Shown here: one piece after another, positions 26,457 through 63,985 of the stretch
Numbering within the stretch: position 1 is the stretch's first letter
How the letters are laid out: each line of letters begins with the position of its first letter
Origin: Thunnus maccoyii
Taxonomy: Eukaryota > Chordata > Actinopteri > Scombriformes > Scombridae
Assembly (NCBI RefSeq): GCF_910596095.1
Contig: NC_056550.1
Span: 17,702,501 to 17,766,500, forward strand
Direction of reading: 5' to 3'
Length of the DNA: 64,000 bases
Program-made: the position numbers and the translations under genes
The notes under the pieces: generated by a model
The model's database searches: none
Seen by the model: only the letters and a program-made list of their open reading frames with translations
Told to the model about the DNA's origin: nothing

Positions 26457-27318
26457 TCACAGATGGGTGCTGTCCTGCGTATCAAACCTGTGGCTCTCTG
26501 TGAGCCCGGCGCTGCACTTCCTGCTGCTACCTTGATTGGGTACCAGAGAGAGGGGGTCTGGTCTGATCAGGTACCTGCAGATGGGGCACAGACAGGGTGG
26601 AAAATAGCACCCTGTAATATGTGTAGCTTTCATGCTGTGTTCACATTTTGAGAGTGTTATCAATTATATTGACATTGTGTACTCACACAACATCGTGCAG
26701 CTCCAGTCTGGTGTCTGGGGAAGGGTTGATGAGGATGTAAGATAGTCTGTTCCCTTGGTCTGTCATCCCATCTGACACAGGAAGAAAGAGGTGAGGCAGG
26801 AAATAAAATAGGCACAGGATATACAGCAGGCTGTGCTACATCCGTACACACAGAATAGAGGTTACGTTACAGTGAGTCACAAGACAGGAAGATACATTTA
26901 GATAAAAATGGACACAAGTGGAATACACAGTAAACAACAGGTTTGCACTTGAAATCAGGAGCAGGTACTTACTGAATCCAGTGGGAGAAAGGCCCAAATG
27001 TTTCATCCTCGTTCGCACCAGGGCGTTGAGTTCCTGCCTCTCCGAGCGCCTGAACAGGGTCAGTCTCTGCTGGCTGATCCTCTCTGCAGCACTGCCCGCA
27101 GCCCCCTTGGCCCCGCTGGAGCTCCGACCTCCCTTCCTGCTCAGCCGCCGTGCCCACTGCATGCTCTTCCTCCTGAGCAGTGGGTGGTCCGAGGAGTGGG
27201 AGGAGGTTGAGATGGGCTCAGAGGAGGTGGAGTTGCGGTGAGCGCCAGTCCGGGACAACAGGGGCTCTCTGGGTTCTCTGGTGTCCTCGTAGTCTTCCAC
27301 TGTGATGGATACCTGGGA
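26457..27318 (-). CDS. kcnt: KCNT exons 27-29: C-terminal tail with PDZ-type end
   Basis: Exon 27 (26973-27318) encodes [16 protein letters not shown], a Ser/Thr-rich stretch, then [19 protein letters not shown] with a basic RRKS phosphorylation-type site (S1087) and the conserved [20 protein letters not shown]. Exon 28 carries [19 protein letters not shown] and exon 29 [11 protein letters not shown]. The protein ends DSTHL; T-H-L fits a class I PDZ ligand, as the human QL ends do (ETQL). The KCNT1 segment between the KHLGL block and the DEMNDHQN-like block is absent. Confidence 0.92.
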
Positions 27319-63300: not shown

Positions 63301-63985
63301 AAGCAAAGGTTAATTGCCAGTTACTGAGAGCATCCACTTGAAATTGCCTGTCCAGGTAGCAAATGGTTCACTGTAAATCTCAGGAATTATGACATGAGGA
63401 GCAACACGAATAGGGTGACATACTGATGCTCGCTCTTGATTTCCTTCTTGGTGGGTGCCACCAAAGGAATGTTTTGTTGTTTTAAATGTACACAAGATGC
63501 ATCACTTGCATGCAATGAAAATAAATTATATCAAAAAAATTTAGGCTACTCAATGAATATTTAGTCTCTGTTATGTTCCATTGAGATTAAACGGATATGT
63601 TGCTTTTGGTGTGCTAGTACTGTATTAGCACTATTAGCAACAGTTGCCTCTGCGCACACACGGTAACGAGTAAACCTGTTGCAGCATCCACTACAACAGA
63701 GCTGCAGAGCTGACCGTAAAACAGCCACTCCAACAGATTTACACACCTGACTCCATGAGATCACAGAGAGAAACACAAAACAAACACAAAACAAATGTAT
63801 ACTTTTTAGGTAAGATGACATGATGCTCTCATGGCGCACATATACGCAATGGATTCAGTGCGCCGTGCGTAAACGGTGCTAGAGCGGCTTCCTTACCTGT
63901 CGTCGGTCTGCCAGTCCCCGAGCAACAGGTCTCGGAACCGGTACCGAGGGGGCAGCGGGAGCACCTCCTTTTCCAGTTCGACCAT
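26457..63985 (-). CDS. kcnt: Sodium-activated potassium channel, Slo2 (Slack/Slick, KCNT) family
   Basis: Complete 29-exon coding sequence (3654 nt, 1217 aa), in frame throughout: 63897-63985, 51513-51592, 50611-50713, 50245-50307, 49326-49374, 48356-48415, 47551-47625, 47197-47280, 46642-46736, 45768-45948, 43124-43288, 40242-40378, 39611-39674, 38414-38522, 33527-33635, 32299-32451, 31958-32211, 31184-31505, 30999-31104, 30740-30912, 30147-30218, 29857-29991, 29633-29744, 28651-28752, 28465-28548, 28247-28375, 26973-27318, 26687-26771, 26457-26574. Six membrane segments, a GFG filter (264-266) and two cytosolic RCK domains (about 320-620 and 780-1010) define a tetrameric K+ channel gated by internal Na+ that limits neuronal excitability. 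Human KCNT1 has about 1230 residues and KCNT2 1135. Residue choices are split between the two, so the paralogue is left open. Confidence 0.95.
28247..31104 (-). CDS. kcnt: KCNT exons 19-26: RCK2 domain
   Basis: Starts with [20 protein letters not shown], then [20 protein letters not shown] across the exon 20/21 junction, [73 protein letters not shown] and [18 protein letters not shown]. Exon 26 (28247-28375) encodes [19 protein letters not shown]. The segment E822-S-I-P-E-A827 aligns with the D-N-K-P-D-H reported as a sodium-coordinating site in rat Slack. Confidence 0.92.
31184..31505 (-). CDS. kcnt: KCNT exon 18: acidic/Ser-rich RCK1-RCK2 linker
   Basis: Residues 624-731. It opens with [14 protein letters not shown] and keeps [14 protein letters not shown] and [11 protein letters not shown], both family hallmarks, but the rest is low-complexity (Gly/Ser, then Glu/Asp/Lys). 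This linker is longer and less conserved than in human paralogues. On the opposite strand it leaves a long spurious open frame. Confidence 0.9.
31958..43288 (-). CDS. kcnt: KCNT exons 11-17: RCK1 domain
   Basis: Exon 11 (43124-43288) encodes the S6-RCK1 linker [18 protein letters not shown] and the first beta strand [15 protein letters not shown]. Exons 12-17 continue with [39 protein letters not shown], the [20 protein letters not shown] block, [20 protein letters not shown] and [15 protein letters not shown]. Exon 17 (31958-32211) ends with the conserved [14 protein letters not shown]1 forms half of the cytosolic gating ring. Confidence 0.93.
33937..34790. repeat. Percomorph-type dispersed repeat with internal near-repeats
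   Basis: The block ATGCTAACATGCTCACAATG ... CTAAGGCTGATGGGAATGTC is a familiar fish repeat. It is followed by several diverged copies of a unit with CATCCTCTGGAGACCACGAA and AAATCCATCCATTAGTTATG text (near 34249, 34410, 34540 and 34680). A related fragment is at about 9380-9540. No coding capacity. Confidence 0.65.
37750..37787. repeat. (GA)n microsatellite
   Basis: About 19 GA units in KCNT intron 14. The serine/leucine-repeat frames across it are spurious. Confidence 0.95.
39220..39255. repeat. Perfect hairpin, 14-bp arms
   Basis: AGCCTCTGTTTCCT (220-233 of this kilobase) and its exact reverse complement flank an 8-base loop, in KCNT intron 13. Confidence 0.85.
39409..39466. repeat. Perfect hairpin, 20-bp arms
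   Basis: AAAAGGGCTGAGTCAAGAGC (39409-39428) pairs perfectly with 39447-39466 across an 18-base loop, in the same intron as the hairpin 150 bp away. Confidence 0.9.
40381..40430. repeat. (AC)n microsatellite beside KCNT exon 12
   Basis: The AC run starts three bases upstream (minus-strand sense) of exon 12, so the acceptor of that exon reads as a GT-repeat ending in AG rather than a usual pyrimidine tract. Confidence 0.9.
40769..42158 (+). mobile_element. 5'-truncated L1-like LINE flanked by an 18-bp target duplication
   Basis: AGTTTGTAACCCCTGAAC (40751-40768) recurs as AGTTTGTAACCCCTAAAC (42159-42176), one mismatch. The insert reads on the plus strand as a decayed ORF2 C-terminus with a CPRC...H knuckle at about 41331. 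A G-rich tract (41948-42050) follows, and the tail is CCAATAAAGATAATGTTGAG with A-rich sequence. It is antisense to KCNT in intron 11. Frames are broken. Confidence 0.8.
41948..42050 (+). repeat. G-rich tract with many G4-type runs
   Basis: Repeated GGG and GGGG runs including a GGGA repeat near 42026-42048, inside the 3' untranslated part of the LINE. Confidence 0.85.
42383..42560. mobile_element. Nested foldback (palindromic) MITE
   Basis: Outer arms of 30 bp (42383-42412 and 42531-42560, GAGGCAGCTGGATTCGCGAG and its near-exact inverse) enclose middle arms of about 16 bp (GATCACGCGGGAATCC at about 42424 against GGATTCTTGTGTGATC at about 42513). A central 20-bp hairpin (CCAAACCACCGGTGGTTCGG, 42471-42490) lies within them. 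The whole unit folds on itself. No coding content. Confidence 0.8.
43289..45767 (-). other. KCNT intron 10
   Basis: This 2.5-kb intron follows the pore exon. An open minus-strand frame at 43982-44254 has no recognisable domain. A direct repeat GGTCATGGCAGG occurs twice near 44498 and 44515. Nothing else stands out. Confidence 0.4.
45768..45948 (-). CDS. kcnt: KCNT exon 10: pore helix, selectivity filter and S6
   Basis: Encodes [20 protein letters not shown], then [20 protein letters not shown] and S6 ([15 protein letters not shown]). The filter is T-V-G-F-G-D (262-267). GFG is the KCNT2 version, while [14 protein letters not shown] resembles KCNT1. NLT in the turret is a further sequon. Confidence 0.95.
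46642..49374 (-). CDS. kcnt: KCNT exons 5-9: S2 to S5
   Basis: Exons 49326-49374 and 48356-48415 encode S2 (PLWALQ / [19 protein letters not shown]). Exon 47551-47625 encodes S3 ([19 protein letters not shown]). Exon 47197-47280 encodes S4 ([20 protein letters not shown]), which lacks the regular arginine ladder of voltage sensors, as in all Slo2 channels. Exon 46642-46736 encodes the S4-S5 linker and S5 ([17 protein letters not shown]). Confidence 0.93.
47423..47478 (+). repeat. G4 motif within a hairpin loop
   Basis: Ten-base perfect arms GTGATGTGCG (47423-47432) and CGCACATCAC (47469-47478) flank a loop holding GGGGG-TT-GGGG-T-GGGGGGG-AT-GGG (47444-47467), a canonical four-tract quadruplex motif on the strand opposite KCNT. 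Confidence 0.85.
48597..48764. repeat. CGCA, CA and TA microsatellites
   Basis: Three simple repeats lie close together in KCNT intron 5: (CGCA)n at about 48597-48615, (AC)n at 48682-48712 and (TA)n at about 48743-48764. Confidence 0.9.
48830..48912 (+). mobile_element. LINE 3'-end fragment
   Basis: TTTGATGCTTTGGCAGCATT followed by CATGCCAATAAAGCTCCTTT and GAATTGAATTG is the characteristic 3' end of a common fish LINE family. Only the tail is recognisable. Confidence 0.55.
50245..50307 (-). CDS. kcnt: KCNT exon 4: S1-S2 extracellular insert
   Basis: This 63-nt exon (residues 91-111) encodes [20 protein letters not shown]. It corresponds to the KCNT1 insert with CPKQN and is absent from human KCNT2. 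It has two N-glycosylation sequons, N96-C-T and N101-T-S. The acceptor CCCCCCTGCAG follows a strong pyrimidine tract. A second in-frame AG six bases into the exon could give a two-residue-shorter form. Confidence 0.85.
50611..51592 (-). CDS. kcnt: KCNT exons 2-3: pre-S1 and S1
   Basis: Exon 2 (51513-51592) encodes [19 protein letters not shown], nearly invariant in Slo2 channels. Exon 3 (50611-50713) gives membrane segment S1, about residues 63-82 ([19 protein letters not shown]), then the start of the S1-S2 loop. Confidence 0.93.
52478..52516 (+). repeat. (GGT)n trinucleotide run ending in poly-G
   Basis: About 11 GGT units followed by about nine G. A second G-rich block, GGGGGTTGGGGGTGGGGTGG, starts at about 52618. 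Poly-Gly, Val and Pro frames are spurious. Confidence 0.9.
54812..55312. mobile_element. hAT-like MITE with 8-bp target duplication
   Basis: TTTGAACT (54804-54811) and TTTGAACC (55313-55320) flank the element. The ends AAAGCTGCAACAATTAGTTG and, inverted, TAATTGTTAATTGCAGCACT are relatives of the dispersed GGCTGCAACTAACGATTATT family. The interior contains two similar halves, each with a CAGACAAAACAAGA-type block, so the copy may be a partial dimer. Non-coding. Confidence 0.75.
57955..58480 (+). mobile_element. Retroposon-like insertion with target duplication and A tail
   Basis: AAGTAATGAGGTCTGCCTGT (57935-57954) recurs as AAGTTATGAGGTCTGCCTGT (58481-58500). The insert ends ATAAATAAATTTGCTTAAAA, i.e. 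AATAAA plus an A tail, so it arose by reverse transcription of a polyadenylated RNA. The parent (LINE 3' end or host transcript) was not recognised. Confidence 0.75.
58836..59100. mobile_element. hAT (Charlie-type) MITE fragment
   Basis: CAGTGGTTCTCAAACTTTTT at the left end is the typical terminal repeat of Charlie-group hAT elements, followed by CATGTCAAGGACCCC. The right terminus was not located, so the end coordinate is approximate. Confidence 0.6.
61718..61748. repeat. (CA)n microsatellite
   Basis: About 15 CA units in KCNT intron 1. Confidence 0.95.
63897..63985 (-). CDS. kcnt: KCNT exon 1: cytosolic N-terminus
   Basis: Encodes [19 protein letters not shown] and on to QTDD (29 codons plus two bases). 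This is the short conserved N-terminus of KCNT2, also used by an alternative KCNT1 start. The ATG context is GCCATGG. The promoter lies beyond the right edge of the window. Donor AG/GTAAGG. Confidence 0.9.

Follow-up and report, generated by a model that had tools for sequence, protein, structure and literature searches.

Gene content of the locus

The window, a stretch of 64,000 nucleotides from C18 of Thunnus maccoyii, contains a complete KCNT (Slo2) gene, open from ATG to stop, with dnajb1 and gipc1 next to it, as the initial annotation had proposed (Table 1). Just beyond the window, the left flank carries tecr and the right flank qtrt1 and a dnm2-like dynamin, giving the block order tecr-dnajb1-gipc1-TRIM-SDR-KCNT-qtrt1-dnm2. 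An Rfam scan of the 64-kb window gave no match.

Table 1. Genes of the window and parts of the KCNT gene (positions are those of the window; human sequences used for the identities of dnajb1 and gipc1 are provisional)
Feature	Position	Strand	Description and evidence
dnajb1	2487..5185	+	70.1% identical to human DNAJB1, 64.8% to DNAJB4, 63.5% to DNAJB5; best PDB match DNAJB1
gipc1	13479..15434	+	82.5% identical to human GIPC1, 65.6% to GIPC2 and GIPC3; best PDB match GIPC1, GIPC2 weaker
TRIM-like gene, between gipc1 and KCNT	17869..20980 (approximate ends)	+	RING, B-box, PRY-SPRY
Short-chain dehydrogenase (SDR), between TRIM and KCNT	22391..23807 (approximate ends)	-	
KCNT (Slo2) gene	26457..63985	-	ATG at 63985, stop at 26457; 29 exons, 1211 aa; spliced alignments and inspection of the insert exon
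KCNT exon 1	63897..63985	-	30 residues, short Slo2 N-terminus; spliced alignment
KCNT exon 3	50611..50713	-	S1 and beginning of the S1-S2 loop; spliced alignments
KCNT exon 4	50245..50307	-	63 bases, phase 2 in and out; 22-residue KCNT1-like S1-S2 insert
KCNT exon 5	49326..49374	-	End of the S1-S2 loop and beginning of S2; spliced alignments
KCNT pore exon	45768..45948	-	Pore helix, TVGFGD filter, S6; spliced alignment and Pfam
KCNT RCK1 exons (six)	32299..43288	-	FEQLA, MDDAEAC, BK_channel_a region; spliced alignment and Pfam
KCNT RCK2 exons	28247..31104	-	ESIPEA at the position of human KCNT1 DNKPDH
KCNT last three exons	26457..27318	-	C-tail, without GxxxxGK[ST] motif

A first spliced alignment of the KCNT gene, guided by a provisional human KCNT2 sequence, gave 29 segments, of which 31505-31476 and 31394-31202 were taken together as a single open exon in the model. 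This KCNT2-guided model of 1190 aa was without the S1-S2 insert exon (exon 4) of the final 1211-aa model. Inspection of the insert exon revealed a long pyrimidine tract, an AG acceptor and a GTAAGC donor, and alignments guided by human and chicken KCNT1 used the same exon, beginning 6 bases later (50301). The KCNT1-like S1-S2 insert of the initial annotation is thus encoded in the gene; it carries two N-X-S/T sequons. In KCNT1a of this fish, a distinct insert exon of 60 bases and of the same phase occupies the same place, whereas the provisional human KCNT2 sequence has no S1-S2 insert. The 1190-aa model was used for the Pfam and PDB runs, the core-domain and JTT trees and the six-protein identity table (KCNT2 versus the KCNT1s), and the 1211-aa model for the diagnostic-site counts, the identities of the window protein and the all-column trees.

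The Pfam domains of the window protein (ion-channel, Slo-like RCK and BK_channel_a; PF07885, PF22614, PF03493) are shared with KCNT1. Slo-type RCK domains accompany a six-TM K+ channel core with the TVG[FY]GD filter, indicating membership of Slo2. The best PDB matches were human and chicken KCNT1 (E=0), those to Slo1 being far weaker; these matches, like the identities of 71.9-76.9% to KCNT1/2, place the protein nearer KCNT than Slo1/Slo3.

Comparison with KCNT1 and KCNT2

Human KCNT2 (Slick, KNa1.2, Slo2.1) was the sole KCNT2 compared, in a provisional sequence that fits all 18 human positions taken from PMC13007567 but not K306, a Slick residue given in a review. Before counts and trees, every column in which a row had a gap or X was removed, leaving 1079 columns for six proteins, 848 for seven and 726 core columns for the core-domain tree. 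One in-frame stop in the badly aligned C-tail of the KCNT1b model from C19 was read as X and is likely an intron-border artefact.

The window protein is 76.9% identical to KCNT2 and 71.9-75.4% to four KCNT1s (Slack, KNa1.1, Slo2.2). Identities between KCNT2 and the four KCNT1s are 78.3-82.1%, so that KCNT2 is nearer to each of them than to the window protein, which is fast-evolving. The mosaic character first ascribed to the protein is borne out, and it is a balanced one: among 155 sites at which KCNT2 departs from a state shared by human and chicken KCNT1, 53 are KCNT1-like in the window protein, 55 KCNT2-like and 47 neither. When all four KCNT1s were considered, it agreed with them against KCNT2 at 40 sites and was KCNT2-like at 36. 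Its diagnostic ratio KCNT2:KCNT1 was 69:60 (chicken) or 97:63 (human). The corresponding orthologue-bias ratios were 71:14 and 64:14 for gipc1, 47:24 and 43:25 for dnajb1, and 26:17 for dnm2. Since dnm2, a conserved neighbour, is also weakly biased, such ratios appear suggestive, not decisive, as a test of orthology.

The motifs named in the initial annotation, including RCGVTF, are present in the protein of the spliced model. As evidence of lineage they are of unequal value: of the six proteins compared, the window protein and KCNT2 alone have FEQLA and RCGVTF, but GFG, MDDAEAC and LLRAK mark no lineage, since all occur in the fish's own KCNT1b, and MDDAEAC also in KCNT1a. The short N-terminus had been counted as a KCNT2 trait; this reading is lost, as a 13-residue stretch of it is also present in human KCNT1 (8hir), and PMC3850776 describes the Slack-A N-terminus as Slick-like. 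The window protein lacks the tail insert of 7 residues seen in human and chicken KCNT1, as does the provisional KCNT2, and none of three patterns for a hidden exon encoding it was matched. Finally, the GxxxxGK[ST] ATP-site motif after RCK2, by which the window protein, lacking it, differs from the provisional KCNT2, is not a clean family mark because it is absent in human KCNT1 and present in chicken KCNT1.

Phylogenetic position of the window protein

Both fish KCNT1s group with human and chicken KCNT1 (100% UFboot). The window protein lies outside this clade, nesting it there costing 54-83 log-likelihood units (82 with the 1211-aa model), and KCNT1 orthology or duplication was rejected on these grounds. 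In the best Slo1-rooted tree the window protein was joined weakly to the single KCNT2, with a dlnL of 1.5-6.2 over two alternatives. The Slo1 outgroup is 2.6 substitutions per site distant and matches the KCNT1 or the KCNT2 state about equally; being too distant, it gives no branching order for the KCNT1, KCNT2 and window lineages in trees rooted with 5 and with 7 proteins. Between the KCNT1 ancestor and the KCNT2 split, the six-protein tree has a path of 0.094, as compared with 0.110 for the whole KCNT2 branch. A split of 2R age would call for a burst of change on the KCNT1 stem, and KCNT2 orthology is thus mildly favoured by a rough clock. As far as such comparisons of sequence reach, the protein data cannot separate a third ohnologue from an orthologue of KCNT2.

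KCNT loci and their neighbourhoods

Three KCNT genes were found in the T. maccoyii genome: the KCNT1 co-orthologues on C9 and C19 and the window gene on C18. BK_channel_a exons occur at five loci (three KCNT, two KCNMA1), and neither C12 nor C2 is among their sites. With human KCNT2 as the query, 41 of 82 candidates were scored; all 48 matches fell on C9, C19 or C18, and no separate KCNT2 came to light in the genome. Collections of genome contigs and viral contigs yielded no related locus outside it.

We take human KCNT1 and KCNT2 to lie on 9q34 and 1q31, and tecr, dnajb1, gipc1, qtrt1 and dnm2 to be 19p13-type genes; human 19p13 is not known to have a KCNT gene. On this basis, the window gene is flanked on both sides by 19p13-type genes. 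The only other match to qtrt1 in the genome was at 31%, on C21. According to PMC3572173, homologues of TMED1 and QTRT1, neighbours of human DNM2 (chromosome 19), directly adjoin zebrafish dnm2 (chromosome 3).

The neighbourhood of the window gene is neither of the 9q34 nor of the 1q31 type. The C19 KCNT adjoins a gene recognised by eye as camsap1, with a dnajb gene about 233 kb off, and C9 has a dnajb gene about 11 Mb from its KCNT; these copies thus behave as expected of 9-type genes. The 1-type genes lie on C12: cdc73 (9.78M), a dynamin (9.00M), gipc2 (C12:23.48-23.50M; best exon 77% to GIPC2) and, about 4 kb from gipc2, dnajb4 (best exon 74%). On C12, a 1q/1p-type chromosome by these markers, neither KCNT search gave a match, and no KCNT match was found on C2 in a probable teleost-duplicate block, which runs from a dnajb gene to a dynamin at 32.06-32.15 Mb.

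Origin of the window gene

The window gene is quite probably a third, 19p13-type Slo2 ohnologue, KCNT2 having been lost in this fish and the 19-type copy in mammals. Two early vertebrate genome duplications would have left a Slo2 copy on the 19p13-type segment, with KCNT1 as its counterpart on 9q34 and KCNT2 as that on 1q31. The fish would have kept the 9-type copies, as the teleost pair KCNT1a/KCNT1b, together with the 19-type one, but not the 1-type KCNT2; mammals would have done the reverse. It seems likely that post-2R vertebrates had three Slo2 genes and that fish genes named kcnt2 at gipc1-qtrt1-dnm2 are a hidden paralogue ('Slo2.3') and not the orthologue of human KCNT2. The same 9/19/1 pattern is found in the ohnologue sets DNM1/DNM2/DNM3 and DNAJB5/DNAJB1/DNAJB4, with KCNT filling the 19p cell; in those sets the human 19p copy was retained, whereas that of KCNT was not. 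DNM1, DNM2 and DNM3 are ohnologue hosts of miR-199 pairs (PMC12688097). A third Slo2 copy in a 19p13 segment was already the proposal of the initial annotation; synteny supports it strongly, while some of the motif arguments given for it have weakened. Of the two findings that were to count against it, nesting in the KCNT1 or the KCNT2 clade was rejected for KCNT1, with a weak joining to the single KCNT2, and the absence of another KCNT2 from the genome was observed in part.

The main competitor is a fish KCNT2 orthologue that a single-gene move took out of the 1-type chromosome and placed in the 19-type block (or a human KCNT2 that moved the opposite way). The pairing with human KCNT2 in the best tree, the missing tail insert and the smaller rate changes demanded by branch lengths are all consistent with it, and it is kept alive by the search among the scored candidates that found no other KCNT2, since a one-to-one count fits. 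However, the block is otherwise 19p13-type, the 1-type markers stand on C12 away from any KCNT match, and a moved gene must have reached an ohnologous segment by chance. That KCNT2 is nearer all four KCNT1s than the window protein also argues against orthology, though the fast evolution of the latter must be kept in mind. The KCNT1-type insert exon points the same way at first sight, but leaves the odds of the two readings unchanged as it could be ancestral and lost in KCNT2. We consider such a move unlikely. Arrival in the 19-type block of a copy from the fourth (6p21-type) segment, or of a single-gene duplicate of older or later date, would agree with a protein tree giving no order of the three lineages; with recognised neighbours of the 19p13 type on both sides, it is very improbable. 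A teleost duplicate of KCNT1 would explain the KCNT1-like motifs, the insert exon and the KCNT1-like state of about half of the diagnostic sites, yet the fish has two KCNT1 genes besides, already grouped with those of human and chicken, and this origin is hardly credible. Searches of open-licence literature turned up neither a description of a third Slo2 lineage nor a usable paper on fish Slo2 evolution or electric-fish Slack/Slick; nothing on Slo2 lineages emerged from PMC8246343, PMC11787269 and PMC8595397.

Predicted properties of the channel

The predicted product of the window gene is a tetrameric sodium-activated potassium channel, in which two RCK domains from each subunit would form a cytoplasmic ring that gates an S1-S6 core with the TVGFGD filter. 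The D...H pair in RCK2 of human KCNT1 (DNKPDH), which we take to be the sodium site of Slack, reads E...A in the window protein (ESIPEA), and activation by Na+ is a prediction. A leucine stands at the position of human KCNT2 W156; W156L in human KCNT2 is reportedly a loss-of-function variant. Variants of KCNT1 and KCNT2 cause epilepsies, and fish are common models. If the window gene is a third Slo2 ohnologue, results on fish 'Slick' would not be transferable to human KCNT2, and transfer based on orthology would be wrong. The gene would also close a gap in the 1/9/19 ohnologue map, and would offer a third natural variant for studying the divergence of sodium sensing and gating in Slo2, of interest for its KCNT1 extracellular insert, the lack of the ATP-site motif, the changed presumed sodium-sensor pair and the leucine at W156. 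The protein ends in STHL, which is PDZ-ligand-like and may be compared with ETQL in KCNT1/2.

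Gene model and S1-S2 insert

The genome searched, read as that of a teleost, comprised 782 Mb on 54 contigs, with the window at positions 17702501-17766500 of contig C18. Spliced alignment revealed a complete KCNT (Slo2) gene, from start to stop codon. Because its GT-AG borders were set by the alignment method, they are not independent proof of the model, which is supported instead by an open frame across the gene. The model guided by KCNT2 contained 29 segments, reduced to 28 exons when an 81-base stretch was read as open coding. A further exon, absent from this model, is preceded by a long pyrimidine tract and followed by GTAAGC; it also appeared in the alignments guided by human and by chicken KCNT1, starting at 50301. 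The final model has 29 exons and encodes 1211 residues, in which Pfam detected Ion_trans_2, two Slo-like RCK stretches and BK_channel_a. The closest solved structures were human and chicken KCNT1, and none of the PDB hits was a KCNT2-named protein.

The added exon encodes the KCNT1-like S1-S2 insert, in agreement with the initial annotation. The insert has its own small phase-2 exon in two fish Slo2 genes, this one and KCNT1a (contig C9 of the same fish), whereas in KCNT1b (contig C19) the S1-S2 loop lies within one longer exon. Since the insert exon is small, separate and in phase 2, splice skipping could give a KCNT2-like short loop. Some of the other motifs from which a mosaic had been proposed do not mark lineages: GFG, MDDAEAC and LLRAK are present in fish KCNT1b, and MDDAEAC also in KCNT1a, and are thus shared or variable states. 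KCNT1 and KCNT2 both have the short N-terminus that had been taken as KCNT2-like. The filter reads GFG in KCNT1b and GYG in its partner KCNT1a, indicating that this residue changed within KCNT1.

Neighbourhood of the gene

Compared with human sequences, and in agreement with the PDB hits, the adjacent dnajb1 scored 70.1% to DNAJB1 versus 64.8% to DNAJB4 and 63.5% to DNAJB5, and gipc1 82.5% to GIPC1 versus 65.6% to both paralogues. Beyond gipc1, Pfam identified a TRIM gene and then a short-chain dehydrogenase. Reading 20 kb on either side of the window added tecr on the left (75.5% to human TECR) and, on the right, qtrt1 (72.9%) and a classical dynamin (88.7% DNM2 versus 86.5% DNM1 and 86.7% DNM3). 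We take human TECR-DNAJB1-GIPC1 to lie at 19p13.12 and QTRT1-DNM2 at 19p13.2. According to PMC3572173, zebrafish dnm2 (chromosome 3) is directly flanked by homologues of TMED1 and QTRT1, the two genes that adjoin DNM2 on human chromosome 19. Minus-strand ORF pieces just left of the window resemble, by eye, a LINE reverse transcriptase, and the dnajb1-gipc1 interval holds a weakly DDE_3 transposase-like fragment (20.4 bits against a Pfam cut-off of 28.6).

Other KCNT genes and paralogon segments

BK_channel_a exons were found at five loci, three KCNT (C18, C9, C19) and two KCNMA1 (C14, C20). With 41 of its 82 candidates scored, a human KCNT2 query gave at least 48 matches, all of these on C9, C19 and C18. 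In the tree, the proteins from C9 and C19 grouped with human and chicken KCNT1 (100% UFboot); camsap1, recognised by eye, adjoins the C19 gene, and we read the two KCNT genes as the teleost KCNT1 pair. Contig C12, the expected place of a KCNT2 gene, carries cdc73, whose human counterpart is at 1q31.2, together with a dynamin, gipc2 (best exon 77%) and dnajb4 (best exon 74%). On C2, a dnajb and a dynamin whose first exon is 93% identical to human DNM2 (the C18 dynamin reaches 91%) form a block that resembles a teleost duplicate of the window block, a typing that we infer. Neither C12 nor the C2 block gave a KCNT match in the BK_channel_a search or in the KCNT2-query search, the latter with 41 of 82 candidates scored. 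A dnajb lies ~233 kb from KCNT1b and another ~11 Mb from KCNT1a, so KCNT-DNAJB linkage may be ancestral. PMC12688097 lists DNM1, DNM2 and DNM3 as ohnologues with paired miR-199 genes, and PMC2211742 implies that PRRX1 (1q24.3) and PRRX2 (9q34.11) share one paralogon. Contig C7, which has a compact dynamin gene and also a third gipc, may be one more segment of the paralogon represented by the window block.

Coordinates of the features (window positions unless a contig is named)
Feature	Position	Strand	Remark
KCNT gene	63985-26457	minus	ATG to stop
S1-S2 insert exon	50307-50245	minus	63 bases, phase 2 in and out
Open coding stretch	31475-31395	minus	81 bases
KCNT1a insert exon	C9:9202057-9202116		60 bases, same phase
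DDE_3-like fragment	6401-6676	plus	
LINE-like ORF pieces	C18:17690220-17691551	minus	
dynamin	C12:9.00M		
cdc73	C12:9.78M		
gipc2	C12:23.50M (end)		dnajb4 starts ~4 kb on
dnajb	C2:32.06M		
dynamin	C2:32.14M		
dynamin and gipc	C7:9.93M and C7:20.82M		

Origin of the gene

Human and chicken KCNT1 share a residue that is different in KCNT2 at 155 sites; here the window protein was KCNT1-like at 53, KCNT2-like at 55 and neither at 47. Against four KCNT1 proteins (1079 columns), 40 sites were KCNT1-like, 36 KCNT2-like and 79 peculiar to the window protein, and all three differed at 14. Tree tests rejected a position inside KCNT1, and of the three trees left the one with the gene as sister to KCNT2 scored best. 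Its two alternatives were rejected or close to rejection with all columns (AU p 0.013-0.07), and both survived with core domains (p 0.1-0.35). This signal is weak, since the Slo1 root agrees with either state about equally (6 v 8, 10 v 10, 10 v 6).

The protein data are neutral to mildly favourable towards KCNT2 orthology, under which a KCNT2 gene would have moved alone into the matching ohnologous segment. The sister position to KCNT2 fits such a relocation, and the branch lengths (window 0.253, KCNT2 0.110, KCNT1 stem 0.094) require less rate change under it than under a split of 2R age, which we count against a third ohnologue. The position of the gene strongly favours a 19p13 ohnologue. 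As we judge a single-gene move into a matching ohnologous segment much less likely than reciprocal loss, we consider relocation of KCNT2 unlikely and, from the one species examined, a 19p13 ohnologue with reciprocal loss probable. The insert exon leaves the odds of the two readings unchanged.

Predicted channel function

By its domain content, the protein should assemble as a tetramer into a potassium channel gated by a ring of RCK domains. Among 16 KCNT2 variant positions taken from PMC13007567 and compared here (nonsense site K564 left out), 14 are unchanged in the window protein, the exceptions being W156 to L and T556 to S; the same source reports human KCNT2 W156L as loss of function. Tryptophan occupies this position in each of the five other KCNT proteins in the comparison. 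The RCK2 segment DNKPDH, which we take to be the Slack sodium site, is replaced by ESIPEA; it reads DNPPDM in KCNT2 and DYPPDN or DNPPDN in the fish KCNT1s, indicating that the segment varies. A sodium-activated current is likely. The KCNT2 ATP-site motif was absent from the window protein. PMC3850776 treats the ATP-site motif GNKHSGKT as characteristic of Slick; chicken KCNT1 (5u70, residues 1060-1146) carries this motif and human KCNT1 does not.
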